A DNA stretch of 64,000 bases from Moorella sp. Hama-1. Lineage in GTDB: Bacteria > Bacillota > DSM-521 > Neomoorellales > Neomoorellaceae. Every line of letters begins with the position of its first letter. Position 1 is the first letter of the stretch. A program made the translations under genes and the position numbers. The DNA lies in NCBI RefSeq assembly GCF_023734095.1, contig NZ_AP024620.1, positions 2,724,501 through 2,788,500 of the forward strand. Reading direction: 5' to 3'. Below are positions 15,176-56,472 of the stretch, one piece after another. The notes beneath the pieces were generated by a model. The model was not told where the DNA came from, searched no databases, and was given only the letters and a program-made list of their open reading frames with translations.

Positions 15176-16606
15176 CTATTTCCCGGCGGAAGCTACCTGG
15201 GCCGTGGTTACCTCTAAATCGTATTCCTCCGGCCTCCATTTTTCGATATCCAGCTCTTTTTGTATTTCGTACCAGAACTCTTCCCCGTCGTCGGGTATTG
15301 TTTCGATTTGGGAGCTGATGATGTCCAGCCACTTCTTCTCTCTGGGGGACACCAGAACTTTGCCCTGGGCCATCCCCCGCTTGATGACCTCCACCGCCAG
15401 GGCGGCCGCCTTTTTGGTCGCAATGAAAGCGTCCTTTTCCTTAACCAGTTCCTGACTGATCTCCAGCACTATGCCCGGCTTCAGGACGTAGGCCTGGGGA
15501 TCAAGCCTGGAATCGGAGTCGGCCAGCCAGTCCCGCATCTTCAGGGCAAAGCTGCGCCCGTCCGCCGCCGCTTCGTTCATCAGCCGGCAGTCGTAGATAA
15601 GCTGTTCCGTGGATACAACGGGTGCCGGAGCGCTCAGAAGCTTGACGTTCTGGACGGATTCGTTGCTCCACATGTCGCAGACACAGGCTGCGATGTTGCC
15701 GATGGCACTTAAATGGGCACATGCCGCCGTCTTGCCTTCCATGGAAATTGGCACCCCGGCGATGGCTTTCATGTATGGCCCCTCATAGCCGCAGTCTTTA
15801 TCAGGCCCGGTGGCACCCATTTCCAATGCCACCAGGCTCCTGGGGATGGTGGCCACCCTGTCCACCGCCGCAAACACCCTGGGGATCATCCCCTGTTCCG
15901 CCAGGGCGAGGGCGGTGTTGGCAAACCCGCATGCCGTATCTCCACCGGCTATTGAGCCGGTCCGTTCGGCGATCCTGACAATGTTGGACCAGAGGAACCG
16001 CATGTCCCTGGCCCCCAGGACACCCAGGGCGAAAATGGCCTTCCTGATGTTGCAGGTGACGAGCGCCTCGTCGTGGACCTCCTTGCCGCCCGTAGACTCG
16101 ATGGACAGGATATCAGCCCCGGCCTCGGCGCATTTCTCGAAGGTGATGAACATGTTTTCCAGGAGTTCGCCCCGCCTCATCAGCGGCGGCCTGAGAATCT
16201 CCCTGGTATCGTTTGGGGTACACCTCAGGAGGCTTTTCAACCCGTACTTATCCTCGTACTCGTACATCTTGTCCCGCAGGATTTTGTTAATCTCGATCCC
16301 CCACTTCGGCTTCATGGTAGTCTCCGGGAGCAGTTCAAGTTCCACGATGATGCCGGGGGCGTACAGGTCCTTCGCCCTCTTTAAAATCCCCTCGATCATC
16401 TCCGCATACTGCCTTCTGACTTCGGGCATGGTGCTCTCGTCAATATTCATCGGCGGAAGGGTCATGTTGATCTCGGGGTAAACCGTCCCTCCACCGATCA
16501 CCATGCCGTTCTTTGCTCTCACGGGATGGGGCGCAATCCCGTAAACGAAATCATCAAGAGATTTGACCGCCAGTTCGCCGAAGGTTTTAACAGGCTTGTA
16601 ATCCAT
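15176..16606 (-). CDS. mtaB: Methanol:corrinoid methyltransferase MtaB
   Basis: 476 residues, the length of MtaB. This zinc enzyme moves the methyl group of methanol onto the Co(I) corrinoid of MtaC. The three zinc ligands known from the Methanosarcina enzyme have clear counterparts: Glu in DILSIESTGGKE, Cys in GDTACGFANT and Cys in EGKTAACAHLSAIGN. The gene is last in a minus-strand unit of pterin methyltransferase, mtaC and mtaB, with AGGAGG before the ATG. Such clusters let acetogens grow on methanol. Confidence 0.95.
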   Translation of the reverse strand: MDYKPVKTFGELAVKSLDDFVYGIAPHPVRAKNGMVIGGGTVYPEINMTLPPMNIDESTMPEVRRQYAEMIEGILKRAKDLYAPGIIVELELLPETTMKPKWGIEINKILRDKMYEYEDKYGLKSLLRCTPNDTREILRPPLMRRGELLENMFITFEKCAEAGADILSIESTGGKEVHDEALVTCNIRKAIFALGVLGARDMRFLWSNIVRIAERTGSIAGGDTACGFANTALALAEQGMIPRVFAAVDRVATIPRSLVALEMGATGPDKDCGYEGPYMKAIAGVPISMEGKTAACAHLSAIGNIAACVCDMWSNESVQNVKLLSAPAPVVSTEQLIYDCRLMNEAAADGRSFALKMRDWLADSDSRLDPQAYVLKPGIVLEISQELVKEKDAFIATKKAAALAVEVIKRGMAQGKVLVSPREKKWLDIISSQIETIPDDGEEFWYEIQKELDIEKWRPEEYDLEVTTAQVASAGK

Positions 16607-16668
16607 TATGGATTCCCTCCTATCCCTTCCTTAATTCCGGCTTTAGCCGGGGCTGCCGCCCGGTCTTC

Positions 16669-17328
16669 CTACGCCGACAGGTCAACCCGGCCGTTTTCCT
16701 TCTGGAGCTGCTTGCAGAGTTCGGTGGCCGAGGCGGCATCGGGGGCGTACCCGTCTGCCCCGATCTCGTCCGCAAAACCCAGGGTGATAGGCGCTCCGCC
16801 GACGATCACCTTTACCTTGTCCCTCAGCCCGGCTGCGACCAGGGCATCGATGGTGGACTTCATGTTCATCATGGTGGTGGTCAGCAGGGCAGACATGGCC
16901 ACGATGTCCGGCTGGTACTTCTTCACCGCCTCCACGAATTTACCCGGCTCGATATCCACGCCCAGGTTGTAAACCGTGAAACCGCTGCTCTCCATCATCA
17001 TGCCTACCAGGTTTTTACCGATATCGTGCAGGTCCCCCTTGACGGTTCCCAGCACGATCTTCCCCATGGACGGCATGTCAAAGGCCTGCTGGCTCTCCTT
17101 CACCACCTCCACGCCGGCGTTCATCGCCCTGGCCGACATCAGGACCTCCGGCACGAACATCTCGTTGTTCTTGAACAGCACACCGACCCGATCCATGCCC
17201 GCGATCAGGCCCTTGTTGATCACATCCAGAGGGTCCGCTCCACTGCTCAACAAACTCTTTGTAACTTCCACTACCCGTGCTTCATCACCATCAAATACCG
17301 CCTGTGACAGTTCATCAAAGCTGGCCAT
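16669..17328 (-). CDS. mtaC: Methanol-specific corrinoid protein MtaC
   Basis: 219 residues: a helical cap (about 1-85) and a Rossmann-type B12 domain with the base-off/His-on motif DxHxxG in TVKGDLHDIGKNLVG. The SALLTTTMMNMKSTIDAL and VGGAPITLGFADEIGADGYAPDA segments complete the binding site. It carries the methyl group between MtaB and the pterin or corrinoid methyltransferase. ATG 17328 is chosen because GGGAGGA precedes it; a longer frame starting at 17460 would overlap the upstream gene and add 44 unrelated residues. Confidence 0.95.
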   Translation of the reverse strand: MASFDELSQAVFDGDEARVVEVTKSLLSSGADPLDVINKGLIAGMDRVGVLFKNNEMFVPEVLMSARAMNAGVEVVKESQQAFDMPSMGKIVLGTVKGDLHDIGKNLVGMMMESSGFTVYNLGVDIEPGKFVEAVKKYQPDIVAMSALLTTTMMNMKSTIDALVAAGLRDKVKVIVGGAPITLGFADEIGADGYAPDAASATELCKQLQKENGRVDLSA

Positions 17329-17452
17329 CTCGACAAATCCTCCCTCATTTTTAATGATTTTTGATTGACCCGTAATCCCCGCCGGACACATCCGGCCCCT
17401 ACGGGAAAGAGATGCGGCCGGGTATTGCCGGGATACCGGAGCACGGCTGGTA

Positions 17453-18256
17453 TCAGTCATGCCTGTACAATCCCCTGCGGTGGGCCTTCAGGTAGCCGCT
17501 GCAGAAGGGATCCTTCCCCAGCAGTGCCTTTGAGGCGTGGAAGAAGCCCATCATCTCCCTGTCCAGGGGGTCCAGGATATATGAATCCATTCCGGCGGTC
17601 ATCAACTGCACCATGCAGACCTGGTTGAGAACCCGCCTGTTGGGCAACCCGAAGCTGATGTTGCTGAGACCACAGATGATGTGTACGCCAGGGTAAGTCT
17701 TCCGGATGAAACCCACGGCTTCAATCAGTTCAACCCCCGCCTGGTCGCTGGTGCTGACCGGCTTCACCAGCGGGTCGATGTAGATGTCGTCCCTCTCGAC
17801 ACCGGCTGCTGTCAGGTCTTCCACCAGCTTACCGACGATCTCAATTCTCTTCTCCGCGGTGGACGGTATACCGTCGTTATCCATGCACAGGGCCACCACC
17901 CTGGCGTTGAAGCTCTTCACGATGGGCAAGACCGCCTCGAACCGGTCCGGTTCCGCGGTGATGGAGTTTAACATGGGCCGGCCCCTGGTCGCCAACTTCA
18001 ATCCCATTTCCAGAGCCTGGGGATTGGGGCTGTCAATACACAGGGGAACGTCTACCGCTTCCCTTACGGTATTGACCAGCCAGGCCATGATCTCCGGTTC
18101 ATTGTGAATCAGGGTTCCGCAGTTGACGTCGATGTAATCCGCCCCGGCCTCCGCCTGCTTCACCGCGATGTCGTGGATGTAAGCGGCATCACCCCTTTCA
18201 ATTGCCTCTTTAATCGGTTTGCGACTGGTGTTGATCAATTCTCCCACAATGAGCAT
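17453..18256 (-). CDS. Methyltetrahydrofolate:corrinoid methyltransferase (MtvA/AcsE-like)
   Basis: 267 residues of the pterin-binding TIM-barrel family, which includes AcsE and the second methyltransferase of O-demethylase systems. Visible marks are MLIVGELINTSRKP, the pterin site AGADYIDVNCGT, PLCIDSPNPQALE, NSITAE and HIICGLSNISFGLPNRR. It would pass the methyl group from MtaC to tetrahydrofolate, linking methanol to the Wood-Ljungdahl pathway without an MtaA/coenzyme M step. It is first in the mta unit. A homologue is encoded at 53393-54190. Confidence 0.92.
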   Translation of the reverse strand: MLIVGELINTSRKPIKEAIERGDAAYIHDIAVKQAEAGADYIDVNCGTLIHNEPEIMAWLVNTVREAVDVPLCIDSPNPQALEMGLKLATRGRPMLNSITAEPDRFEAVLPIVKSFNARVVALCMDNDGIPSTAEKRIEIVGKLVEDLTAAGVERDDIYIDPLVKPVSTSDQAGVELIEAVGFIRKTYPGVHIICGLSNISFGLPNRRVLNQVCMVQLMTAGMDSYILDPLDREMMGFFHASKALLGKDPFCSGYLKAHRRGLYRHD

Positions 18257-18417
18257 CGGCTGCTACCTCCCAACCCGGTATGGATTAATCCAGCTTCCTT
18301 TAACGATAGAATTGTGTTAAACTTAAGATCATGAATCAACTCCCCCTATCACATCCCTTTTAACAGTTTCAGATCCATCAGAACCAGTTCCTGTGCCCCC
18401 GCCTTGAATTATACGTT

Positions 18418-18488
18418 ACGACAATATTAAGATCATGTAAAAAAGGCAATAATTTGTGGCTAATTTATAGTGAATTGTCGTGTATAAT
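18418..18488. promoter_or_regulatory. Divergent control region of the mta genes with distant dyad
   Basis: ACGACAAT (18418-18425) and its exact complement ATTGTCGT (18474-18481) lie 48 nt apart, the second touching a TATAAT box at 18483-18488 that serves the plus-strand corrinoid gene. The -35 region is weak, suggesting activation. The segment lies between the divergent transcription units. An operator function is inferred. Confidence 0.45.
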
Positions 18489-18526
18489 TTATTTACGAAG
18501 GAATAAACAGGAAAGCCGGTGATACC

Positions 18527-19201
18527 TTGAGCGACCGTACCCAAATATTTCAGGACATTATTTCCGCCATCCTGAGGGGAGAGGCCAACGGTGTATTGAA
18601 ATCAATTAACTTGGGGCTGCAGATGGGGATGAGTGCTGACGAGATCCTGGAGGAGGCTATGATACCGGCAACCGTCCAGACCCTGGACAAATACCAGGGG
18701 GCGGATTTTTACATCCCTGATGTCATCAATGCTTCCCACGCCATCGAGGCCGGTCTGTTCGCCTTGAAACCCTACATTAAAAAAAGCCTCCAGAAGCGAA
18801 AGAAAATCGTCATCGGCACTGTGGAAGGGGATATTCATGACATCGGAAAAAACCTGGTGGCCCTGTCCCTGGGTTACGCCGGGTTTGAGGTCGTCGACCT
18901 GGGTGTGAATGTCTCGCCGGCGGAATTCGTCAGGTCGGTAGAGCAGCACCGCCCGGAGATCCTGGCAATGTCGGCATTACTGACCACAACCATGGGCGAA
19001 ATGGCAAGGGTAATCAAGGCCCTGGAGAAGCACCACCTGCGCAAAAGCGTCAGGGTGCTGGTGGGTGGAGGGCCTGTGACGAGGGAGTTTGCTGAGTCCA
19101 TCGGGGCGGACGCCTACGGCAGCTCGGCCCGTGAGGCCATCAGTATCGCCCAATCCCTGGTGAGCCGGTGCAGTGAGCGAGAAAGGAATTGTGCCTGTTG
19201 A
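18527..19201 (+). CDS. Second MtaC-like corrinoid protein
   Basis: 224 residues with the same architecture as MtaC: helical cap, then the B12 domain with GTVEGDIHDIGKNLVAL (DxHxxG), LSALLTTTMGEMARVI and VGGGPVTREFAESIGADAYG. The TTG start at 18527 follows a purine-rich site (GAAAGCCGGTGA). It is transcribed away from mtaC, with no methyltransferase directly beside it, so it may serve an unlinked methyltransferase or act as a spare carrier. The C-terminal CSERERNCAC contains three cysteines, not seen in the neighbouring copy. Confidence 0.88.
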   Translation: MSDRTQIFQDIISAILRGEANGVLKSINLGLQMGMSADEILEEAMIPATVQTLDKYQGADFYIPDVINASHAIEAGLFALKPYIKKSLQKRKKIVIGTVEGDIHDIGKNLVALSLGYAGFEVVDLGVNVSPAEFVRSVEQHRPEILAMSALLTTTMGEMARVIKALEKHHLRKSVRVLVGGGPVTREFAESIGADAYGSSAREAISIAQSLVSRCSERERNCAC

Positions 19202-39007: not shown

Positions 39008-39023
39008 TAAAAAGTCATATTTT

Positions 39024-39150
39024 AGCACCGAATTCCCGTAAAGACGGGATACGGGGGATTTTTTTTGGGGTGAAGAGCTATCTGCTCCGGGCTAACTCTC
39101 GGTCCGAACCCGGCAACTAACCTCGTAGGTGTGCGAGAGTGAGGTCTTTA
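39024..39150 (+). ncRNA. c-di-AMP riboswitch (ydaO/yuaA class)
   Basis: The leader has the conserved blocks of the ydaO motif in order: CCGAATTCCCG, ACGGGGGA, GGGGTGAA, then GGTCCGAACCCGGCAACTAA and CCTCGTAGG. This class binds cyclic di-AMP and commonly controls NlpC/P60 wall hydrolases, as here. The 3' side of the aptamer runs close to the gene's GAGG ribosome binding site, so control of translation start is possible. No terminator hairpin is obvious after it. Confidence 0.85.
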
Positions 39151-39155
39151 GATAA

Positions 39156-39809
39156 TTGAAAAAATGGTCGAAGTATTGCCTTACTGCCGCCCTGGCCGGG
39201 GCCTTTACCCTGGCGGCCGCCGGGGTAGCCCTGGCCCGGCCCTATGAAGTACAAAGGGGCGACACCCTCTGGGCCCTGTCCAGGCGCTATGGTGTAACGG
39301 TAGCGCAGATTCAAGCCGCAAATAACCTGGATTCCTCCCTGATTCTTGTTGGCCAAATCCTGGAGATCCCCACCGGCGATAACACGCCTATCAATCGTTA
39401 TGAACCCACCCCAGCATCGCGTAGCGAAAGAGTTGCTCCCTCTACCATAGGTGCTCGTATCGCTACTATCGCCCGCCAGTATGAGGGTGCCCCCTACCGC
39501 TGGGCTGGGACAAGCCCTAAGGGTTTCGATTGCTCCGGATTTACCCTGTACGTATTTGACCGTCTGGGTATTGAACTGCCCCATTCGGCGAAAGACCAGG
39601 CCTCCCTGGGTACCCATGTGGATAAAAGTGACCTCCTGCCCGGCGATCTCGTCTTTTTCCACACCTATGCCCAGGATATTAGCCATGTGGGCATCTACCT
39701 TGGGGATGGCGATTTTATCAGCGCCACCAATGGCGGCGTATCCATCGACAGCATCAACGATCCCTATTACTGGGGGCCGCGCTACGTCGGTGCCCGCCGG
39801 GTGAGATAA
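39156..39809 (+). CDS. Secreted LysM-NlpC/P60 peptidoglycan endopeptidase
   Basis: 217 residues. A signal peptide (CLTAALAGAFTLAAAGVALA) is followed by one LysM domain (about 31-75, YEVQRGDTLWALSRRYGVTV) and an NlpC/P60 domain with catalytic Cys in GFDCSGFTLYVFDRLG, His in ISHVGIYLGDG and a third polar residue near the end. It cuts peptidoglycan stems outside the cell. TTG 39156 is the start and lies just after the riboswitch. It is closed by a terminator. Confidence 0.93.
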   Translation: MKKWSKYCLTAALAGAFTLAAAGVALARPYEVQRGDTLWALSRRYGVTVAQIQAANNLDSSLILVGQILEIPTGDNTPINRYEPTPASRSERVAPSTIGARIATIARQYEGAPYRWAGTSPKGFDCSGFTLYVFDRLGIELPHSAKDQASLGTHVDKSDLLPGDLVFFHTYAQDISHVGIYLGDGDFISATNGGVSIDSINDPYYWGPRYVGARRVR

Positions 39810-46373: not shown

Positions 46374-47390
46374 TTACCGGTAGATCCCATATTTATCTAC
46401 GGCCCGGTACAGGGCCAGGACATTTTCCGGGGGCAGGGAGGCGTTCAAAATACCGCAGGCTGTCGAGAAGATATAGCCCCCGCCGGGGGCCGCAACGTCC
46501 AGCAGGCTGCGGGTGGCGGCAGTTATAGTATCCGGGTTGCCGGTAACCAGGAGATCCAGATCGAAGTTGCCCATCAGGCACCACCTCTCCCCGTATTCCC
46601 TTTTAACGGCCCCTATATCCATGCCGGCGGCCGGCTCCAGGCCCTGGAGGCCGTCCAGGGGCAAACCGGCCAGGTCGGGCAGAACGGCCTGGAGATTGCC
46701 ATCGGAGTGGTACAGGACCGGCAGGCCCATTTCTTTGATCCCCTCTACCTGACACCGCAAAAGGGGTAAAAAGAGCTCCCGCCAGAGGTCCGGCCGGATG
46801 TAGGTCCCCCGGCCGTAGGCAATATCGTCGCCGATGATAATACCGTGGGCCCCCGCCTGCCGGCAGAGGCGCGCCAGTTTTATATTGAAGTCGACGACGG
46901 CCGCCGCCAGTTTCCCGATGGCTTCCTCCCCGGCCGCCGCGGCCAGGAGAAATTCGGTAAAGTCCAGGAGTCGCCCCGTCCCCTGGAAGGGGCCGTCGAT
47001 AAAGGCCAGGACAAAGAAGTCCGTTTCCTCCCGCCAGCGACGGATAGCCTGCAGGTTGAAGGAGACGGGGTCCGGCAGGGTATAATCTGCGGCGACCCGG
47101 ATGGCCGGGATGGCTGGCGCCAGGGGCACCTTCAAGTTCCCCCGGTTAGCATAACGGCAACCCCAGGCATCCCGGTAGCTGCCGGACCCCGCTTCCGCCA
47201 CCGGCGCCGCCGGGGTAATAGCCAGGAGGTCCATCCCCAGGAGTTCCCGGGCCGCCACCTCAGACTGGAAGTCAGGGGCCCGGCCCAGCAGAACGGCCAC
47301 CAGGCCTGGTTCCAGTTCGAACTCCCCCCGGGGTACCCGGTCGGGCCTACCGCCGGCCAGGGCCACCTGCACCCTTTCGATATGAGTCAC
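46374..47390 (-). CDS. UroD-superfamily methyltransferase, candidate methyltransferase I
   Basis: About 338 residues of the uroporphyrinogen-decarboxylase/MtaA superfamily. Marks: HIERVQVALAGGRPDRVPRG at the start, IIIGDDIAYGRGTYIRPDLWR in the middle, LYHSDGNLQAVLPDLA and FSTACGILNASLPPENVLAL late. MtaA-type enzymes bind zinc by HxC and a later Cys; here the first motif reads HSD, so a different ligand set is used. Placed last in a corrinoid cluster, it may load methyl groups from an O-methyl substrate. GTG 47390 matches the family start better than ATG 47408. Confidence 0.78.
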   Translation of the reverse strand: MTHIERVQVALAGGRPDRVPRGEFELEPGLVAVLLGRAPDFQSEVAARELLGMDLLAITPAAPVAEAGSGSYRDAWGCRYANRGNLKVPLAPAIPAIRVAADYTLPDPVSFNLQAIRRWREETDFFVLAFIDGPFQGTGRLLDFTEFLLAAAAGEEAIGKLAAAVVDFNIKLARLCRQAGAHGIIIGDDIAYGRGTYIRPDLWRELFLPLLRCQVEGIKEMGLPVLYHSDGNLQAVLPDLAGLPLDGLQGLEPAAGMDIGAVKREYGERWCLMGNFDLDLLVTGNPDTITAATRSLLDVAAPGGGYIFSTACGILNASLPPENVLALYRAVDKYGIYR

Positions 47391-47470
47391 GTTCCTTTTT
47401 TCCTCCATTCAACTGTAAGACCATGTTCATTATTGACTACTGATGAAGATAGAATGTAGGCTCTATTAGA

Positions 47471-47627: not shown

Positions 47628-49463
47628 TCATGGTAGCAAAAGCGAATTTACGTATACTTCCTGGAAGGAAGGCCGGGTCATCAGCTCAATATAGCCCACC
47701 TGCCGGGCAATATGCTCGCACCGGCGGCGTTCCGTCATAGAGATGAGGGCCAGGCGCGCCCCGGTGCCGGCGGCATTGCCCAGCTGGTGGAAGGCCGTCA
47801 GGGGCAGGTTGGGGAACATGCCGATGGTAACGGCGCTCTCCAGTTTCAGGTGGGTACCAAAGGCCCCGGCGACCACGACCTCTTTCAGGTCCGCCAGGTT
47901 CAGCCCGGCCGCCTCTAGGAGCAGCAGGGTACCGCTGGCAATGGCGGCCTTGGCCAGCTGGATCTCGCTGACGTCCTTCTGGGTGACCACCAGGTCGCTG
48001 TCTATACCGGCCTCTTCCGCCGGCACCAGGAGGAACTCCGGCGGACCCCCTTCAGCCGGCCGCCTTACCCGGGGGTGTTTTAGATCCATCCGGCCGCTTT
48101 TGTTGATGATACCGGTGCGGTACAGCTCGGCCACGGCGTCCAGGATGCCGGAACCGCAGATGCCTAAAGGCGGCGCCCCACCGATGCTCTCCCAGAAGAC
48201 CTCCCGGCCGTCGTCACTCAGGCGAACGGCGGATATGGCGCCGGTGATAGCCCGCATACCCTGGGCGATATGGGCGCCTTCGAAGGCCGGCCCCGAGGCG
48301 CAGGAACAGGAGAGCATCTTGCCGCCGTAGCTCAGGACAATCTCCGTATTGGTGCCGATATCCAGGCCCAGGGTGACCTTGCGGGCCTCATCGAGGCGGC
48401 TGCCCAGGATCATGGCCACATGGTCGCCACCGACAAAACCGGCGATTACCGGCTGCAGGTAAACATAGGCCCCCGGGCTAAAATTCAAGCCCAGGCTCCG
48501 GGCCTTTACCTCCACCGGCGTAGTCAAAGCCGGCACGTAGGGCGCCCGGGCCAGCTGGGCCACCGGCAGGTGCAGTAACAGGTGGTGCATGGCCGTATTG
48601 CCGACAATTACGGCTTCCTCAATATCCGTCGGGGCCACACCGGCCTTTGCCGCCAGGGTGGCGGCCAGGCGGTTCAAACCTTCAATCTCGACTTCCTGGA
48701 TACGCCGGTACTCCTCTTCGCCCTCCAGGGCATAGCCCAGGCGGGCCATGACGTCTTCCCCGTAAGCTATCTGGGGGTTCATAATACCATCGGCCGCCAG
48801 GGTCGCACCTGTCTCCAGGTTGATGAGAAAACCGGCTACCTTGGTAGTGCCCAGGTCGACGGCCAGGCCCACCGGTGGTGCCGGCCGGCCGGCATAAACA
48901 TTGATCACCTCGGACCCGCGTACCGTGACCACACCCTGGCCCCCCGCCGCCAGGGGTTCCCCCTCCCGGGCCAGGCCAAAGTCCACCACAGCCCGGTGCA
49001 GGCCATAGGTGCTCTCCAACTCCCCGGCCACCTGTTGCCAGATAGGGTGGGGATTTTCAATAGTAGTCTTATTCAAAGATATGTTATATCTTTTTACCGG
49101 GGGCTCGGGGACAACCTCCACCTCCAGCCCCTCGACCTGAAGTTTCTGAACTCCGAGCATGGATTCCGGTGGGATTTCCACCTTCAAGGGAGCGGTGACT
49201 ACAGCCTGGCAGGCCAGGCGATAACCCTGTTCCAGCTGAGCCGGGGTAAGGAAACGCCGCTCTGCCGGCGTTATCTCTCCGGCCTGCCCGGAGGCTACCC
49301 GGACCCGGCAGCGGCCGCAGAGGCCGCGGCCACCGCAGGGAGCAGTCAGACCGCCGGACCCCAGGGACAATCCCAGTTGCTGGGCGGCAGCCAGAATCGT
49401 CTGGCCGGTCGCCACCTCAGCCCGCCGGCCCACCGGCTGGAAATCAACTAACACTTCTGCCAT
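47628..49463 (-). CDS. Corrinoid protein reductive activator (RACo/RamA type, ASKHA domain)
   Basis: 611 residues. An N-terminal plant-type [2Fe-2S] domain binds iron through Cys43, Cys49, Cys52 and Cys85 (APCGGRGLCGRCRVRV, then YRLACQA). A linker and a large ASKHA ATPase-like domain follow: VDLGTTKVAGFL, VIVGNTAMHHLLL, GLDIGTNTEIVL, CASGPAFEGAHI and VVAGAFGTHL. Such proteins spend ATP to reduce the inactive Co(II) corrinoid to Co(I). ATG 49463 has GGGGGTG upstream and overlaps the regulator gene by 20 bp. Confidence 0.93.
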   Translation of the reverse strand: MAEVLVDFQPVGRRAEVATGQTILAAAQQLGLSLGSGGLTAPCGGRGLCGRCRVRVASGQAGEITPAERRFLTPAQLEQGYRLACQAVVTAPLKVEIPPESMLGVQKLQVEGLEVEVVPEPPVKRYNISLNKTTIENPHPIWQQVAGELESTYGLHRAVVDFGLAREGEPLAAGGQGVVTVRGSEVINVYAGRPAPPVGLAVDLGTTKVAGFLINLETGATLAADGIMNPQIAYGEDVMARLGYALEGEEEYRRIQEVEIEGLNRLAATLAAKAGVAPTDIEEAVIVGNTAMHHLLLHLPVAQLARAPYVPALTTPVEVKARSLGLNFSPGAYVYLQPVIAGFVGGDHVAMILGSRLDEARKVTLGLDIGTNTEIVLSYGGKMLSCSCASGPAFEGAHIAQGMRAITGAISAVRLSDDGREVFWESIGGAPPLGICGSGILDAVAELYRTGIINKSGRMDLKHPRVRRPAEGGPPEFLLVPAEEAGIDSDLVVTQKDVSEIQLAKAAIASGTLLLLEAAGLNLADLKEVVVAGAFGTHLKLESAVTIGMFPNLPLTAFHQLGNAAGTGARLALISMTERRRCEHIARQVGYIELMTRPSFQEVYVNSLLLP

Positions 49464-51099
49464 AGTTGGCACCCCCAATTTTACGGAAGACACTTGGTGT
49501 GTAACCTTCCTGCTTTTTAAAGACCTGGCCAAAGTAGCGGGCGTCGTGGTAACCCACCCGGGCGGCGATCTCCGCTACCGGCAAATTGGTGTTTAATAAC
49601 AACTCTTTAGCCGCCTTGAGGCGTACCCTGGTGAGATAATCAATGAAGGTTAACCCCTTGAACTGCTTAAAAAGGCGGCTAAAATAACAAGGGCTCAAGT
49701 AGACCTGCTGGGCTACCTCCTCCAGGGGCAGATCCTGGCTGAAATTGGCCTCAATGTACTTACCGGCCCGGTCAATGAGGGAGGAGTTACGCTGCTCCCT
49801 GGTTTCCGCCACCTGGCCCACCAGGGCCATCAGGCGTTCCAGGATGCGTTCCCGCATATCGGCCAGGTTATCCAGGGTGAGAAACTCGTCACTGCTGGCC
49901 AGGGCAAGATTAGAAACAGCGTCGGCGTCGGCACCACCCTCCAGGGCGGCCCGGGCCGTCAGGGCGTTCAGTTCCAGGAGTTTCATCTTCAATATCGCCG
50001 GCCGCTTTTCCTGCTCCAGGAAGAGCTGCATCAAAATATTATTGACCCGCTCGTAGGCAGCCTGGCTGTCGCCCATCCGGATAGCCTGGGTCAACTCCTG
50101 CTCTTCCGGACCCTGAAGTAACTGCTCAACATTGGACCGGGCGATAACGTCATCAGCATGGATAACCTGGTCACCGCCATAGAGCAACCGGAATTCCGCC
50201 GCTGCCGCCGCCTCAGCGTAAGATCTGGCCAATTCGGTGACCTTCTCCACGGGCCGGCCAATACCTACCGTTACCGTGACCCTGGTATCCCGGCGAACCT
50301 GGCGGCAGATACTATCCCCCAGTTCGATAACGGCCCGGCGGCTGGCTTCACCGCCGGGCAGGTGGTCCAGAGGTAGAAGAATGACGAATTCATCCCTGGT
50401 AACGGGGGCGAGCAAAGCACCCGGCCAGGATGTCGTCGCCCCTTCCAGAACCTCTTTAACCTGCTGCTTTAAAATCTGGCGTTCGACCTCCGTCCCCTCC
50501 CGGGCCAGGGTAACGAAGTTATCGATATCCATCAACAGGGCTATCCGGGGCAGGGCGGTGATTCCCAGAAAGCGCGCCCGGCTGACAGCTTCATCTTCTG
50601 AAATGTTACCGTTGATCAGGTCCATAATGAAGCCCAGGCGAATAAAGGGTTTAGTTTCCTCCAGGGCGGCCCGCAGCCGGGTCGTCTCCTGCAGGCGCCG
50701 GCGGGCGGCGGCAATGCCGGCGGCCAGCTCGTCGAGGAGGGGCAGCATCTCTTCCCCGGCTACTGGCTTTAATAAATACTTGGAGGCGCCCAGGGAGACT
50801 GCTTCCCGGGCATAATCAAATTCACCGTAGGCGGTGACAAAGATTAGCCTGGCCTCGGGGAGAAGAGCCCGGATCTCCTGCCCGGCGGCCAGCCCGTCCA
50901 TGACAGGCATTTTGATGTCCAGGAAGATGATATCCGGCTGGAGCCTGGAGGCCTGGTTTACCGCTTCGACCCCGTTACCTGCTTCGCCTACTACTTGATA
51001 GCCGGGGCGTTCCCGGGCCAGTAAAAAACGGATGGCCTGGCGCTCCAGGGGTTCATCGTCGACAAGCAGGATCTTGACATCCTTGACATCCGTAGCCAA
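49444..51099 (-). CDS. YesN-type response regulator (receiver, degenerate GGDEF-like, AraC HTH)
   Basis: 551 residues. The receiver (8-125) has the acidic pair D14/D15, phosphoacceptor D61 in IIFLDIKMPVMDG and Lys in YLLKPVAG. A long middle part (140-430) resembles the degenerate GGDEF-like domain common in YesN regulators (TRDEFVILLPLD). Two AraC helix-turn-helices finish it (LPLEEVAQQVYLSPCYFSRLF; AEIAARVGYHDARYFGQVFK). It is the natural partner of the kinase encoded just upstream. TTG start, with GGAGG 12 nt before it. Confidence 0.9.
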   Translation of the reverse strand: MATDVKDVKILLVDDEPLERQAIRFLLARERPGYQVVGEAGNGVEAVNQASRLQPDIIFLDIKMPVMDGLAAGQEIRALLPEARLIFVTAYGEFDYAREAVSLGASKYLLKPVAGEEMLPLLDELAAGIAAARRRLQETTRLRAALEETKPFIRLGFIMDLINGNISEDEAVSRARFLGITALPRIALLMDIDNFVTLAREGTEVERQILKQQVKEVLEGATTSWPGALLAPVTRDEFVILLPLDHLPGGEASRRAVIELGDSICRQVRRDTRVTVTVGIGRPVEKVTELARSYAEAAAAAEFRLLYGGDQVIHADDVIARSNVEQLLQGPEEQELTQAIRMGDSQAAYERVNNILMQLFLEQEKRPAILKMKLLELNALTARAALEGGADADAVSNLALASSDEFLTLDNLADMRERILERLMALVGQVAETREQRNSSLIDRAGKYIEANFSQDLPLEEVAQQVYLSPCYFSRLFKQFKGLTFIDYLTRVRLKAAKELLLNTNLPVAEIAARVGYHDARYFGQVFKKQEGYTPSVFRKIGGANYGRSVS

Positions 51100-51189
51100 A
51101 GCTGAGCTCTGCCTCCTTAAGCCAATAACGTGGAGCCCTCATGGGGGCGAACGCCCTCACCAGCAAACTATGAAAATACGGACTGAGCA

Positions 51190-51337
51190 GGGGCTGGAGG
51201 TTACAAGCGGAGGGCGACTTGGTCCGAGGCGCTAGATACTTGCGCGAAGCCGCGGGGAGGCGGCGGTGAACGGGATGGGGATCAGCGCCAAGTTTGCTAG
51301 CCGAGAACCACCGGAGCCCGGAGCTGTACCTCCAGCC
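51190..51337 (+). ncRNA. Structured RNA-like element, short copy
   Basis: 148 nt. The ends pair: GGCTGGAGGTTACA (from 51192) with TGTACCTCCAGCC (51325-51337), keeping the pairing of the 33.7-kb copy despite base changes. GCGAAGCCG, GGGAGGCGGCGGTGAACG and AAGTTTGCTAGCCGAGAACC are conserved. About 90 nt found in the long copy are absent. It lies between the kinase and regulator genes, on the opposite strand to them. Confidence 0.6.
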
Positions 51338-51431
51338 AACAAGAAGCTGGATTTTAGCTTAACCAACAGTAACCATTTTGGGTAGAACCCTATTTGCGAA
51401 GAAGCGGAGAGAACCCCTCCTGCTCCCCCCT

Positions 51432-53255
51432 CTACTCCTCAGTATAAGGGAAAGTCAGCTGAACGCAAGTACCTTTTCCTGGGGTACTGGCTACGTCCAG
51501 GGCGCAGTTGCTGCCGAACTGGTGCTGCAGGCGCCGGTAGACGTTGACCACCCCCAGGCCGCTCACCTGCCCCTTACCGCTCCGCCGGACCTCCAGGTCA
51601 AAAATGGCCTTTTTGACCTCGGGCGCGATGCCCACGCCGTCGTCTTTAATCTCCACCTGGACTTGATCTCCCACCAGGCGCACCGCAACGGTTATTTCGC
51701 CGCCCTCTTCTTTGGGCTCCAGGCCGTGGATAACGGCATTCTCCACCAGGGGCTGCAGGATCATGCAGGGCACCCGGGCCTTCAGGGCGGCTTCTTCGAC
51801 CACTACCCGGCCCCGGATGCGGTCCGAAAACCGTGTTTGCTGGATATAGAGGTAATCACGCACGGCAGTGATCTCTTCCGCCAGGGCAACTGACTCCTTG
51901 ACCTGGTAGAGGCTGTAGCGCATAAGGCGGGCCAGGGCGCGGACCATTTTTTCCGTATCCGCCGCCTCTTCTAGGAGGGCCAGGCGGGCGATGGTGTTTA
52001 AAGAATTAAAAAGAAAGTGGGGGTTGACCTGGGACTGGAGGGCCTTGAGTTCGGCTTCCTTCAGGGCCTGTTCCAGCTGGTGCTGCCGCTTGAGGAAGTG
52101 GATAAAACTGCTCCGCTGGTCCTCCAGTTCTTTATTGGCCAGCAGCACCGTATTGAGCTGCATAATCTGGCCGGATACGAAGGAAAGCAAGCCGCAGACG
52201 GCTTCCAGGTCCGCCAGGGAGAGGACCGGGACGGCTGCCTGCAAATCGGCCGGGGCGGGATCGCCCTCCAGCAGGCAGTGGCCGCAGAGGACGGCCCCCA
52301 CTGTCCCGTCTTCATTGGCCAGGGGGTAAGAGATTTCCAAGAGCCCGGCGTGGCAGCGGTAGATAAAGGCTTCTTTAAAATTACTCTGCAGGGTGGTGAC
52401 GTCCAGGGGCCGGGCCGGGTTTTCCCGCAGCAGGTGGCAGTGACGGGAACACTCCAGGAACCCCCCCAGGGGCGTCAGGGGGTTGCCGGCGGCATCCACC
52501 ATCACCAGGTGCAGGCCCGTCATCCGGGTAAAGGCCCGCTGCAGGTCCTCCAGGGAACCCTCACCAAAAAATAGATCCAGGGTAGCTGGCGCCAGGACGG
52601 CCTGGCGCTTGCGGTCGGCGCCGATCAGGTTTTTAATCAAGGGGATGGCCGCTGTGGCATCGGCGGCGTAGCCGTCAGCCCCCATGCGGGCGGCAATCTG
52701 GGCATTCAAGGGTGTGCCGCCCACCACAACCTTGATCTTGTTACGCCACCCGGCCTCCTGTAGAGCGGCAATGGTATCCTCCATGGCGTTCCGGGTGGAA
52801 GAGAGGAGGGCCGACAGGCAAAGGACGTCAGGGTGGTGTTTAATAACGGCTTCGACAAAAGTGCTGGGGGCTACATTAACGCCCAGATCAATGACTTCGA
52901 AGCCCGAGGCTTCCAGCATGATGGCCAGGAGATTCTTACCAATATCATGGATATCCCCCTGAACGGTCCCGACAATAGCCCGCCCCACCGGCGGCACCTT
53001 TCCGGCCAGCATCAACGGTTTGAGTTCTTTTAAACCGGTATGCATGGCCCTGGCGGTGATAATCAGGTCGGTAACGTAAATCTCATTTCGCTCGAACCTT
53101 TCCCCCACCACATCCATGGCTGCCACAAAGCCTTCGGTGATAATCCGGGTCGGTTCGCTGCCGGCGGCCAGGGCTTTTTTGATCTCTTCCCGCACCTGGG
53201 CGGCATTACCATTGATTACAGCCTGGATCAGGGTTTCCAGGGAGAAGGATGCCAT
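51432..53255 (-). CDS. Corrinoid-binding/PocR sensor histidine kinase
   Basis: 607 residues. Residues 1-213 are a complete MtaC-like corrinoid protein: helical cap, then DxHxxG in TVQGDIHDIGKN (D101, H103, G106) and VGGTPLNAQIAARMGADGYA. Residues 224-345 are a PocR ligand domain with cysteines at 269, 273, 301, 324 and 327. A linker helix leads to a LytS/YesM-type kinase with His413 in QSQVNPHFLFNSLNTI, an N-box QPLVENAVIHGL (N506) and DDGVGI. No membrane segment is present. It probably senses corrinoid or methylation state and phosphorylates the adjacent regulator. Confidence 0.9.
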   Translation of the reverse strand: MASFSLETLIQAVINGNAAQVREEIKKALAAGSEPTRIITEGFVAAMDVVGERFERNEIYVTDLIITARAMHTGLKELKPLMLAGKVPPVGRAIVGTVQGDIHDIGKNLLAIMLEASGFEVIDLGVNVAPSTFVEAVIKHHPDVLCLSALLSSTRNAMEDTIAALQEAGWRNKIKVVVGGTPLNAQIAARMGADGYAADATAAIPLIKNLIGADRKRQAVLAPATLDLFFGEGSLEDLQRAFTRMTGLHLVMVDAAGNPLTPLGGFLECSRHCHLLRENPARPLDVTTLQSNFKEAFIYRCHAGLLEISYPLANEDGTVGAVLCGHCLLEGDPAPADLQAAVPVLSLADLEAVCGLLSFVSGQIMQLNTVLLANKELEDQRSSFIHFLKRQHQLEQALKEAELKALQSQVNPHFLFNSLNTIARLALLEEAADTEKMVRALARLMRYSLYQVKESVALAEEITAVRDYLYIQQTRFSDRIRGRVVVEEAALKARVPCMILQPLVENAVIHGLEPKEEGGEITVAVRLVGDQVQVEIKDDGVGIAPEVKKAIFDLEVRRSGKGQVSGLGVVNVYRRLQHQFGSNCALDVASTPGKGTCVQLTFPYTEE

Positions 53256-53392
53256 AATATTCCTCCTAAGGAAAAAGGCCGCAGCAGGGAACTAACCCTC
53301 CTGAGGCCGCAAGGAATTCCCACTTAATCATAAATTTGACGTCAGACACAAATTCCCTTCCCCGGCAGGCCGCCTCATTAAAGAGTTGGAGT

Positions 53393-54190
53393 CTAAGCTT
53401 TAATCTTTCCGGCCCGGGCCGCCGCGATGTACTCCAGGCAATATTCATCCTGGCCGTACAGGGCGGTGGCGGCCCGCAACAATCCCATTAAAGGCATATC
53501 CAGGGGATCCATAATAAAGGCGTCCATGCCCCGGGTGAGGCACATGACCATAAAGGCCCGATTTAACAGCCGCCGCTCCGGCAGGCCGTAGGAAACATTG
53601 GAGAGACCACAGATGGCATGAACCTTGGGATATTTTTGCCGCAAGGCGGCCACCGACTCCAGGGCTTCGACGCCGTACTGGCTGTTAACCCCCAGGGGTT
53701 TGATCAAGGGGTCCAGGTAGATATGGTCTTCCGGTATGCCGGCCTCTACCAGGCCCGGTACCAGCCTTTCTGCTACCCGCAGGCGATCTTCCACCGTTTC
53801 CGGCATACCGCCGTCATCCATGCACAGGGCGATGACTTTGGCCTTATATTTCTGCAAAAGGGGCAAAACCTCAGCCCAGCGTTGCTTCTCGGCAGTGATA
53901 GAATTGACCAGAGCCTGACCCTTATGGGCCGCCAGGCCGGCAGCCAGGGCTTCGGCGCTGGGGCTGTCGATACAAAGGGGAACATCAACGACTTCCTGGA
54001 CGCTGTTTACCAGCCAGGTCATGACCTTTTCTTCTTCACCGATGCTTGTCCCGCAGTTGACATCAATAATATCGGCTCCGGCCTCGGCCTGTTTACGGGC
54101 CAGGTCCTGGATATAGGCCTGGTTGCGGTCGGCGATGGCCTGGGCGATAGCCTTACGGCTGGAGTTGATTAACTCTCCGACGACGAGCAT
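53393..54190 (-). CDS. Methyltetrahydrofolate:corrinoid methyltransferase (MtvA-like)
   Basis: 265 residues, the same family as the gene at 17453-18256: MLVVGELINSSRKA, the pterin motif AGADIIDVNCGT, PLCIDSPSAEALA, NSITAEKQRW, HAICGLSNVSYGLPERR. It would move the methyl group from the adjacent corrinoid protein to tetrahydrofolate, completing an O-demethylase. It lies 18 bp after the corrinoid gene. In Moorella the vanillate O-demethylase is MtvB/MtvC/MtvA; the substrate here cannot be determined. Confidence 0.92.
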   Translation of the reverse strand: MLVVGELINSSRKAIAQAIADRNQAYIQDLARKQAEAGADIIDVNCGTSIGEEEKVMTWLVNSVQEVVDVPLCIDSPSAEALAAGLAAHKGQALVNSITAEKQRWAEVLPLLQKYKAKVIALCMDDGGMPETVEDRLRVAERLVPGLVEAGIPEDHIYLDPLIKPLGVNSQYGVEALESVAALRQKYPKVHAICGLSNVSYGLPERRLLNRAFMVMCLTRGMDAFIMDPLDMPLMGLLRAATALYGQDEYCLEYIAAARAGKIKA

Positions 54191-54208
54191 TCCTTGGCCT
54201 CCTTATAG

Positions 54209-54838
54209 TTACGAAACGAGAAGTTGTCCCGCCAGATCAACGGCCGAAGCGGCATCAGGGGCATAACCATCGGCGCCGATCTCATCGGCGAACTTCTGGG
54301 TTACCGGGGCGCCACCGATCATAATCTTAATCTTATCCCTGTAGGCAGCCAGACCTTCGACGGTCTTCTTCATCTGCATCATGGTGGAGGTCAACAGGGC
54401 GGAAATACCCACCAGCTGGGGTTTCTGCTCTTCCACAGCCTGGATAAATTTCTCTACCGGCACGTCGATCCCCAGGTCAACAACCTTGTAGCCGGCGCCT
54501 TCCATCATCATGATGACCAGGTTCTTGCCGATATCATGCAGGTCGCCTTTGACTGTACCGATAACGAAGGTACCTTTCTCTTTCAGCTCGCCGCCGGCCA
54601 GCAGGGGTTTAACCACATCCATGCCGGCGTGCATGGCCCGGGCCGCTACCAGGACCTCTGGCACATAGACTTCGTTATTCTTAAATTTAACGCCAATAAT
54701 GTTCATGGCCGCAATCAGGCCATCATTGATGATGGTGTTGGGTTCGATACCCTCATCCACAGCCTTCTGGGCCAGTTCCCTCACCTTGTTGGCATTACCG
54801 ACCATCAACGCTTCTTTGATTTCCTCCAGGACTGCCAT
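54209..54838 (-). CDS. O-demethylase corrinoid protein (MtvC-like)
   Basis: 209 residues: cap domain and B12 domain with DxHxxG in TVKGDLHDIGKNLVI, SALLTSTMMQMKKTVEGL and GGAPVTQKFADEIGADGYAPDA. It is the methyl carrier of this system and is first in the minus-strand cluster, with AAGGAGG before the ATG. An AT-rich stretch upstream (54850-54905) probably holds the promoter, but I see no consensus. Its fold is shared by the N-terminal domain of the kinase encoded two genes later. Confidence 0.94.
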   Translation of the reverse strand: MAVLEEIKEALMVGNANKVRELAQKAVDEGIEPNTIINDGLIAAMNIIGVKFKNNEVYVPEVLVAARAMHAGMDVVKPLLAGGELKEKGTFVIGTVKGDLHDIGKNLVIMMMEGAGYKVVDLGIDVPVEKFIQAVEEQKPQLVGISALLTSTMMQMKKTVEGLAAYRDKIKIMIGGAPVTQKFADEIGADGYAPDAASAVDLAGQLLVS

Positions 54839-55006
54839 TTGCCGTTCCTCCTTAAAATATAAGTTGGTTCATTTTTAAGTTTATTTTAAGATAAGTGGAA
54901 CGGCAAGGCGAAATTATTGCTAAAGGTTGATTTTCTTGCCCTTGGCGGAAATTGGCTGGCTCTCTTCACCGCCGGGATAGGGCTCGTCCTGGACCCCGGC
55001 CGCCCT

Positions 55007-55773
55007 TTACGGCTCGTTGGCTTTCTCCGCCGCCTGCAGTATTTGTAAGGATGGCCGCCAACCGGGAGGTAAATCAAGTCTGTCCTGGTCGTGGTTTGGG
55101 GAAACGTGATGTCCTTTTACCAGGAAGATCGTTGCCGGGGGAAAGCCCAGCACCGCCAAAATCCCGGCCCCGATAGCCGCATGGTCATCACCTTCCCCAC
55201 TACTAAAGGCCAGGCCGATATCGTGGAGTAAGGCCGCTGCATAAAGACTGGTTGTATCTACGGGCGTTGGCAGCCCGGCAACCATCTCCTGACAGGTAGC
55301 GACTACGCTTTGAGAATGGCCGCTGCGCTGGAGCCGTTTTTCCCCCAGGTCGTTGAGATGCCGGGCCACCCGCAGCCGCCTGGCATCATAATGCTGCTGG
55401 CGCCGGGAGAAATTAGCGGCTAATAATACCAGCTCCTGCAGATCCAGGGGTTTATTCAAGAAGGCATCTACCCCGGCCTGAAAGGCACGCATCCGGTTTT
55501 GTTTATCCGGGAAGGCACTGGTGACAATTATCGGCGGCGCTAATTGGCCGTCCTGCCGGGTTAGATTCTCAGCCACGACGAAACCGTTTTCCCCGGAAGG
55601 CGCAGGTCCAGAATAATTAAATCGAAGCTTTCCCTTTTAGCCCGTTCGATAGCGTCGACGCCGTTATTTTCATGGGTCACTACCGCCGCCCCTTTAGCGG
55701 TCAAGAGGTCCTTGAGCAACCGGGCGCTATTAACGTCATCTTCTACTAATAATACCCGCGCAGCCTGCATCAT
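55007..55773 (-). pseudogene. Receiver-HD domain response regulator, frameshifted
   Basis: Two adjoining frames make one protein. The first (55773-55561) is a receiver start ([30 protein letters not shown] with the phospho-Asp). The second (55576-55007) continues the receiver (PPIIVTSAFPDKQNRMRAFQ, FLNKPLDLQELV) and adds an HD domain (AAALLHDIGLAFSSGEGDDHAAIGAGIL, KGHHVSPNHDQDRLD). The join needs one more G in the four-G run at 55591-55594 (read on the minus strand), so a single-base deletion or sequencing error is likely. Confidence 0.8.
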
Positions 55774-55817
55774 AAACTTTATTCTCCTTTGCGGCCCTCG
55801 TTTACGGCCGGTAGGGT

Positions 55818-55910
55818 TAATCCCGGCGCAGAAATTTATGGATCAGTTCCGGCAGGGCCTGCGTGTCAATGGGTTTGACGATAAACCCGTCGCAGCCGGG
55901 GAGCATTCGG
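55818..55910 (-). pseudogene. C-terminal receiver-domain fragment
   Basis: The minus strand encodes [20 protein letters not shown] followed by LIHKFLRRD and a stop, the last helix and Lys-Pro motif of a receiver domain. The preceding part is replaced by the start of a radical-SAM gene on the other strand. Confidence 0.6.
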
Positions 55911-56472
55911 TCCACGACGGCCCCGGCTGCCGGACGTTAATTTTTATGAGCGGCTGCCCCTTGCACTGCGAATGGTGCGCCAACCCCGAAGGGATGGCCT
56001 TCCGGCAACGGGGGTGAGGCGGGTTCCTTCCGCCTTCCGGCCACTCACTGGTTGCGCCTTTCTGGAAGTTATGCGCTATGTGGATTGGGCCTTTATTGAT
56101 ATCAAACACATGGACCTGGAAAAGCACCGGGAAAAAACTGGCGTGACCAATGAACTAACCTTGAATAATATAGCCGCTCTGGTGGCTTCGAGCTGGCCGG
56201 GCCGGTTGATTATCCGCATGCCAATCATTGAAAACTTCAATGATATGGATGCCAACATTATTGCCACCGCGGCTTTCCTCAACCAAACCGGCCTGCGCGA
56301 GATCAACATCCTGCCATTTCACCGCCTGGGCGACTCCAAGTGGGCCCAGCTGGGTTTAAAATATCCCTACGGTGAGTATCCGGGTACCTCAGGCGAAAAA
56401 TTGGAACACATAAAAAGCTTGTTTCAGGAACGTGGTATAGCCTGTTACGCTGGTTCCGATACGCCGTTTTAG
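55880..56472 (+). pseudogene. Glycyl-radical enzyme activating protein, internally deleted
   Basis: The N-terminal part has [20 protein letters not shown] with the radical-SAM motif CPLHCEWC. The frame ends soon after (GMAFRQRG). The C-terminal part is in a different frame: YVDWAFIDIKHMDLEKHREK, NIAALVASSWPGRLIIRMPI, INILPFHRLGDSKWAQLGL. The middle third, including the extra ferredoxin insert of this family, is missing. No glycyl-radical enzyme gene is nearby. Confidence 0.75.

Follow-up and report, generated by a model that had tools for sequence, protein, structure and literature searches.

A carrier-type cobalamin module on a PocR histidine kinase encoded within a corrinoid methyltransferase gene run of Moorella

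MsmS-type kinases of methanogens are archaeal sensor kinases with a heme cofactor that are linked to corrinoid methyltransferases. How acetogens choose among their many corrinoid methyltransferase systems is largely unknown: Acetobacterium dehalogenans has 26 such systems, whose regulation is largely unexplored (2026 paper, PMC13222342). The dichloromethane mec cassette, a methyltransferase cassette, encodes a PocR histidine kinase, MecA, together with a paired regulator; MecA has 430 amino acids, and PocR is the only domain reported in it (PMC9768040). CarH and the photocobilins are established photoreceptors in which an enzyme-related B12-binding module is joined to an output domain (PMC10979010, PMC11796333); they bind adenosylcobalamin, sense light with the GxxW and EH signature, and act through DNA binding or a diguanylate cyclase. 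The corrinoid methyl carriers themselves (MtvC, MtaC, MtgC and MttC; 1y80, 7xcn and 2i2x) consist of a two-part module with the motifs DxHxxG, SxL and GG.

A 64,000-nucleotide stretch of DNA from Moorella sp. Hama-1 (the window) encodes a kinase that resembles each of these systems in part. Like MecA, it combines PocR with a histidine kinase and has a partner regulator encoded with it among methyltransferase genes, and its PocR domain lies N-terminal to the kinase core; unlike MecA, it adds a B12 module, so that PocR is not its sole sensor domain, and the B12-less PocR kinases that we sampled are not near corrinoid genes. With the MsmS-type kinases it shares the plan of a cofactor-binding sensor kinase tied to corrinoid methyltransferases, those kinases differing in being archaeal and in using heme. 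It shares with the carriers their whole two-part module, their motifs and a common gene run, but its module is fused to PocR and a kinase, has an invariant Cys146 in place of Gly or Ala, has lost Pro62 and belongs to a separate lineage or lineages. Like CarH and the photocobilins, it thus appears to use an enzyme-related cobamide module as a sensor, but its module is carrier-type, lacks the light signature, and sits on a kinase encoded within the very pathway it resembles. We found no description of this B12-PocR-kinase architecture in the open-access literature. For the choice among methyltransferase systems, the kinase and the single putative operator mapped here offer a directly testable case.

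The open reading frame of the kinase, which an earlier note on this DNA had reported with no strand given, is real and lies on the minus strand, with a ribosome-binding site (TAGGAGG) immediately upstream of its ATG. That note had also read the protein as a complete carrier-like cobalamin module followed by PocR and a LytS/YesM-type kinase, and matches in Pfam, in NCBIfam and among known structures agree, placing the module in the N-terminal ~212 residues; all five domains exceed the curated Pfam cut-offs (Table 1). The core is of the LytS/YesM type (PF06580), with the H-box QxNPHFLFN, the N box and the G boxes all present, and H413, N417, N506, D538, G540, G542, G566 and G568 are invariant among divergent B12-PocR kinases. 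The residues singled out beforehand, D101, H103, G106 and H413, are as described and are invariant among relatives. No clear membrane segment was seen in the kinase (top 19-residue hydropathy 1.8), and the best reading is of a soluble, cytosolic sensor. Most members also carry a pattern of cysteines in PocR (CxxxC, YRC and CG; residues 269, 273, 301 and 324) that could bind metal; it is largely gone in the most divergent kinases.

Table 1. Features of the kinase, its gene run and the upstream regulatory DNA. Positions are those of the window, or residues of the kinase where indicated.
Feature	Position	Strand	Remarks
Corrinoid methyl carrier protein (MtvC/MtgC-like)	54209..54838	minus	first gene of run
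Methyltetrahydrofolate:corrinoid methyltransferase (MeTr, PRK07535, MtvA-like)	53393..54190	minus	
B12-PocR histidine kinase (P0001)	53255..51432	minus	607 aa, ATG start
Kinase: cobamide module	residues 6-211		
Kinase: B12-binding_2	residues 6-79		Pfam 1.4e-19
Kinase: B12-binding	residues 92-204		Pfam 6.7e-26
Kinase: PocR	residues 234-336		Pfam 1.1e-16
Kinase: linker helix	residues 347-407		AlphaFold2 model
Kinase: His_kinase	residues 401-480		Pfam 4.5e-28
Kinase: HATPase_c	residues 499-605		Pfam 2.7e-16
Kinase: His413 kinase core	residues 401-605		
Response regulator: receiver + GGDEF-like + AraC-type HTH	49444..51099	minus	
RACo, corrinoid reductive activator	47628..49532	minus	start codon uncertain; listed ORF overlaps regulator gene end
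UroD/MtaA-CmuA-type methyltransferase	46374..47408	minus	candidate substrate:corrinoid methyltransferase (putative role)
Two direct repeats, GCAAGAAAATCAACCTTTA and GCAATAATTTCGCCTTG	54904..54939	minus	putative operator of response regulator; single match in genome
SigmaA-like promoter TTGCCG-17-TAAACT	54878..54906	minus	conserved; read from alignment
GC-rich hairpin, then U-run	53272..53308	minus	between MeTr and kinase genes

Searching NCBIfam with residues 1 to ~212 gave 200 bits for corrin_MtgC_2, 172 bits for pyl_corrinoid and 42 bits for CarH. The first two scores are below the curated carrier cut-offs (370 and 215 bits, respectively); the free carrier of the same gene run also falls short of the pyl_corrinoid cut-off (209 vs 215), so this cut-off is a strict one. 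Judged by these profiles, the N-terminal part is carrier-like yet not a filed carrier. Its nearest PDB match is 1y80, the factor IIIm-binding protein of M. thermoacetica (2.5e-56), to which Foldseek aligned the kinase model with a TMt of 0.97 and 53% identity. The AlphaFold2 model (mean pLDDT 76.6, pTM 0.38), which can be relied on for the individual domains but not for how they are arranged, also matches the cobalamin modules of MttC, MtaC and MetH and, at its C-terminus, the LytS-type kinase GanS; in it, a predicted helix of 61 residues links PocR to the phospho-acceptor helix. Since the module and the closest carriers encoded in its genome are 44–46% identical, the module might be a working methyl carrier tethered to the kinase and serving turnover. 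We consider this very improbable: a free carrier is encoded two genes upstream of the kinase, carrier-shared residues have been lost from the kinase modules, and in the tree these modules stand apart from the neighbouring carrier as a lineage or lineages of their own (p-AU 0.50 and 0.36, which neither establish nor reject a single kinase clade). The tree likewise led us to reject a recent duplication of the adjoining carrier as the origin of the module.

In order of transcription, the gene run comprises the corrinoid protein, MeTr, the kinase, an AraC-type response regulator, RACo and a UroD/MtaA-type methyltransferase. Clustering of the kinase with the corrinoid protein, its methyltransferase and its reductive activator had been claimed before, and all three genes are there; the response regulator and the UroD-family methyltransferase are additions to that account. 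This order is kept in Moorella and two sister genera, the response regulator gene adjoins the kinase gene in every relative examined, RACo lies beside the pair in Moorella, in the sister genera and in G237/G405, and protein searches also placed MeTr at the kinase locus of G004. Between the kinase and regulator genes, positions 51105-51425 hold a copy of a dispersed repeat, present dozens of times in the genome with a ~150-base core, that has no Rfam match and no unusual folding energy; the same gap in other Moorella measures only about 25–45 bases. Upstream of the corrinoid gene, at 55007-56472, lie the apparently truncated remains of a response-regulator/HD protein and a radical-SAM activase, longer relatives of which occur in L070.

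The kinase was found in all 11 Moorella genomes searched, in one of them as a fragment only. Across 398 genomes forming an even sample of the phylum, 20 contain the full B12-PocR-kinase layout (L048 and L050 being counted as full length), ten of them outside the family. As a check, the earlier note had asked whether the architecture follows methyltransferase clusters, and it does. We scanned the neighbourhoods of 18 B12-PocR-kinase loci and 15 B12-less PocR-kinase loci, ~9 kb per side where the contig allowed, for genes encoding a corrinoid protein, MeTr, UroD-type methyltransferase, RACo, MtaB or MttB; three of the 18 had contigs too short to be read and were left out. Such genes lay near 14 of the 15 readable B12-kinase loci, L065 being counted as positive on UroD-type genes alone, as compared to none of the 15 B12-less loci, which were returns of the same search and not a random draw (Fisher 2e-7); the Moorella loci in this test are not independent, and restriction to distant loci gave 7/8 vs 0/15 (Fisher 3e-5).

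Aligning the kinases revealed a sharp difference in constraint between the two sensor domains. The corrin-binding motifs are invariant in all 20 aligned kinases, and among eleven divergent members 34 of 206 positions are invariant in the B12 domain (including T97, G100-D101, H103-D104, G106-K107-N108, S148, L150 and G179-G180) vs 3 of 112 in PocR, which makes the B12 module the constant sensor part. Identity in PocR falls to 11–22% in the most divergent relatives. PocR is the most variable part between loci, as expected of a substrate-specific domain, and could itself be the real sensor, of a methylated substrate; the B12 module would then be a relic, or would dock the kinase to RACo or the methyltransferases. 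The predicted ligands of PocR domains are small hydrocarbon derivatives, and MecA is thought to sense dichloromethane (PMC9768040). We judge this improbable: neither a dock nor a relic would need corrin-binding residues that stay invariant over kinases 36–60% identical to that of the window, and PocR kinases devoid of the B12 module were near corrinoid genes in 0/15 cases. The photoreceptors provide a precedent for a B12 module fused to an output domain, and a sensor of their kind would respond to light by photolysis of an alkyl-cobamide. However, the published GxxW/EH signature is missing from all 20 kinases (Phe at the Trp place in 20/20, Wx9EH in 0/20), and the CarH family scored 42 bits vs 172–200 for carriers; light sensing was thus rejected, and we give it almost no credence.

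Comparing ten kinases with 29 non-redundant carriers, a set from which we excluded L074_1, an apparent carrier with Cys146 that is a kinase fragment, revealed several positions at which the two differ: firstly, residue 146, two residues ahead of S148 in the SxL motif, is Cys in 10/10 kinases, the carriers having Gly (17), Ala (11) or Cys (1); secondly, Pro62 occurs in none of the ten kinases vs 26/29 carriers, and Thr153 in 2/10 vs 24/29; thirdly, Arg92 is found in 9/10 kinases vs 2/29 carriers. Met155, common to the carriers, is variable in the kinases and often lost. The carrier-shared residues lost from the sensor are located at the cap and the corrin edge, and strand geometry suggests that the side chain of Cys146 should face the lower-ligand pocket. 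Because Pro62 and often Met155 are lost and Cys146 is gained, enzymes that act on the carrier are not to be assumed to act on the sensor, and the loss of carrier-shared residues suggests that the sensor and the enzymes of the operon may exchange no methyl groups. Shared descent alone could account for the differences between kinases and carriers.

In an alignment of the region preceding the corrinoid gene in twelve genomes, a single block was conserved; it consists of the direct repeats followed by the promoter, the -35 element of which overlaps the second repeat. Searched with up to three mismatches, the 36-base repeat pattern has exactly one match per genome in 11 of the 12 genomes, always upstream of the corrinoid gene (the reversed control gave 0 matches), and it occurs as a single copy in G129, a distant family, as well. 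Repeats abutting a promoter are a layout suited to an AraC-type activator, so the operon probably activates itself; regulation of the operon by its own products through the mapped repeats is likely, given this sequence pattern, and we infer that the repeats are the site of the response regulator and act by activation rather than repression. A wider regulon was considered and, on match counts, rejected, as the half-site GCAAKAAWWYNRMCCTT gave matches only moderately above those of the reversed-pattern control.

Like the window, six other genomes have a GC-rich hairpin and a U-run after it between the MeTr and kinase genes. A generic scan did not list it, and in our own reading it is a probable attenuator; if real, the carrier and MeTr would be made in excess over the kinase and regulator. 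In M. thermoacetica DSM 521, mtvA3 (Mothe_c21690) and mtvC5 (c21700) are up on methanol, and the part of that report drawn on here names the RACo homologue c11760 as activating enzyme and does not mention the kinase (PMC13391211). Locus-tag order and map position suggest that mtvA3 and mtvC5 are the MeTr/corrinoid pair beside the kinase; in G012 (2,527,564 bp), MeTr-type copies lie at 0.303, 1.126, 1.141, 1.258 and 2.109 Mb and the fused corrinoid gene at 1.384 Mb, a map that agrees with the DSM 521 locus tags and would put c21690/c21700 at the pair beside the kinase.

An Rfam scan of 51000-55100 returned no match at E <= 1, and a cobalamin riboswitch on the operon was rejected on this ground. 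With no riboswitch to do that job, the kinase might merely tell the apo form from the cobamide-bound form, so that methyltransferase genes are made whenever cobamide is present, in any state of methylation or redox. Retention of all corrin-binding residues together with changes in the carrier-shared cap residues is what would be expected of a cofactor bound without turnover. That RACo accompanies the kinase in several lineages points instead to a role for redox state, and Moorella synthesises its own cobamide, so that supply is seldom limiting; we regard a pure availability sensor as unlikely, though a reading to be kept in view.

The reading towards which we lean is a cytosolic two-component sensor of the state of the cobamide, or methyl carrier, pool that activates its own operon. 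At the sequence level it draws on the domains, the conserved corrin-binding residues, the gene order and the unique conserved repeats at the promoter. The N-terminal module would hold its cobamide in the base-off form, H103 serving as the lower ligand, as in the carriers; a change in upper ligand or oxidation state would shift the helical cap; this shift and the binding of a small ligand by PocR would be relayed through the linker helix to His413; and the AraC-type regulator would act at the single operator before the corrinoid gene, switching on the carrier, MeTr, the kinase, the regulator, RACo and the UroD-type methyltransferase. Residue conservation and the fold model make cobamide binding by the kinase likely. 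That its input is the methylation or redox state, and not simply cobamide supply or a PocR ligand, is a reasoned guess whose chances we put at about even, and which of the states named in the earlier note would be read (methylation, redox or availability) we infer. We know of no other non-photochemical kinase of cobamide state; if corrinoid state is read, this would be the first known to us and could readily be built into biosensors of methyl or Co(I)/Co(II) status. More tentatively, and with considerable doubt, these proteins may be the first kinase family to read methyl-group flux directly: the cobamide in their carrier-type fold, tuned by Cys146, would become methylated or oxidised in parallel with the carrier pool, RACo would reset it, and the level of their own operon would be set in this way.

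Two loci, like the loss of carrier-shared residues at the cap and the corrin edge, speak against the sensor reading. In G013 (L134 10000-12600), the corrinoid gene and operator are gone and the MeTr gene has decayed, yet the kinase, regulator, RACo and UroD genes are retained. G086, the exception in the neighbourhood scan, has no corrinoid gene in reach of its B12-PocR kinase. At this locus (L061 7302-10827), the kinase and regulator genes are situated between rpoN and gapA-pgk-tpi-gpm-eno on the same strand, a place before the glycolytic genes often occupied by cggR in other Firmicutes; the placement possibly links cobamide state to glycolysis.

Elsewhere in the window, a second methyltransferase group at 15176-19201 resembles the methanol system: its minus strand encodes MtaB, a corrinoid protein and a MeTr, and a further corrinoid protein is encoded on the plus strand. 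A c-di-AMP riboswitch (39016-39146, 74 bits) lies just before a plus-strand open reading frame that starts at 39156.
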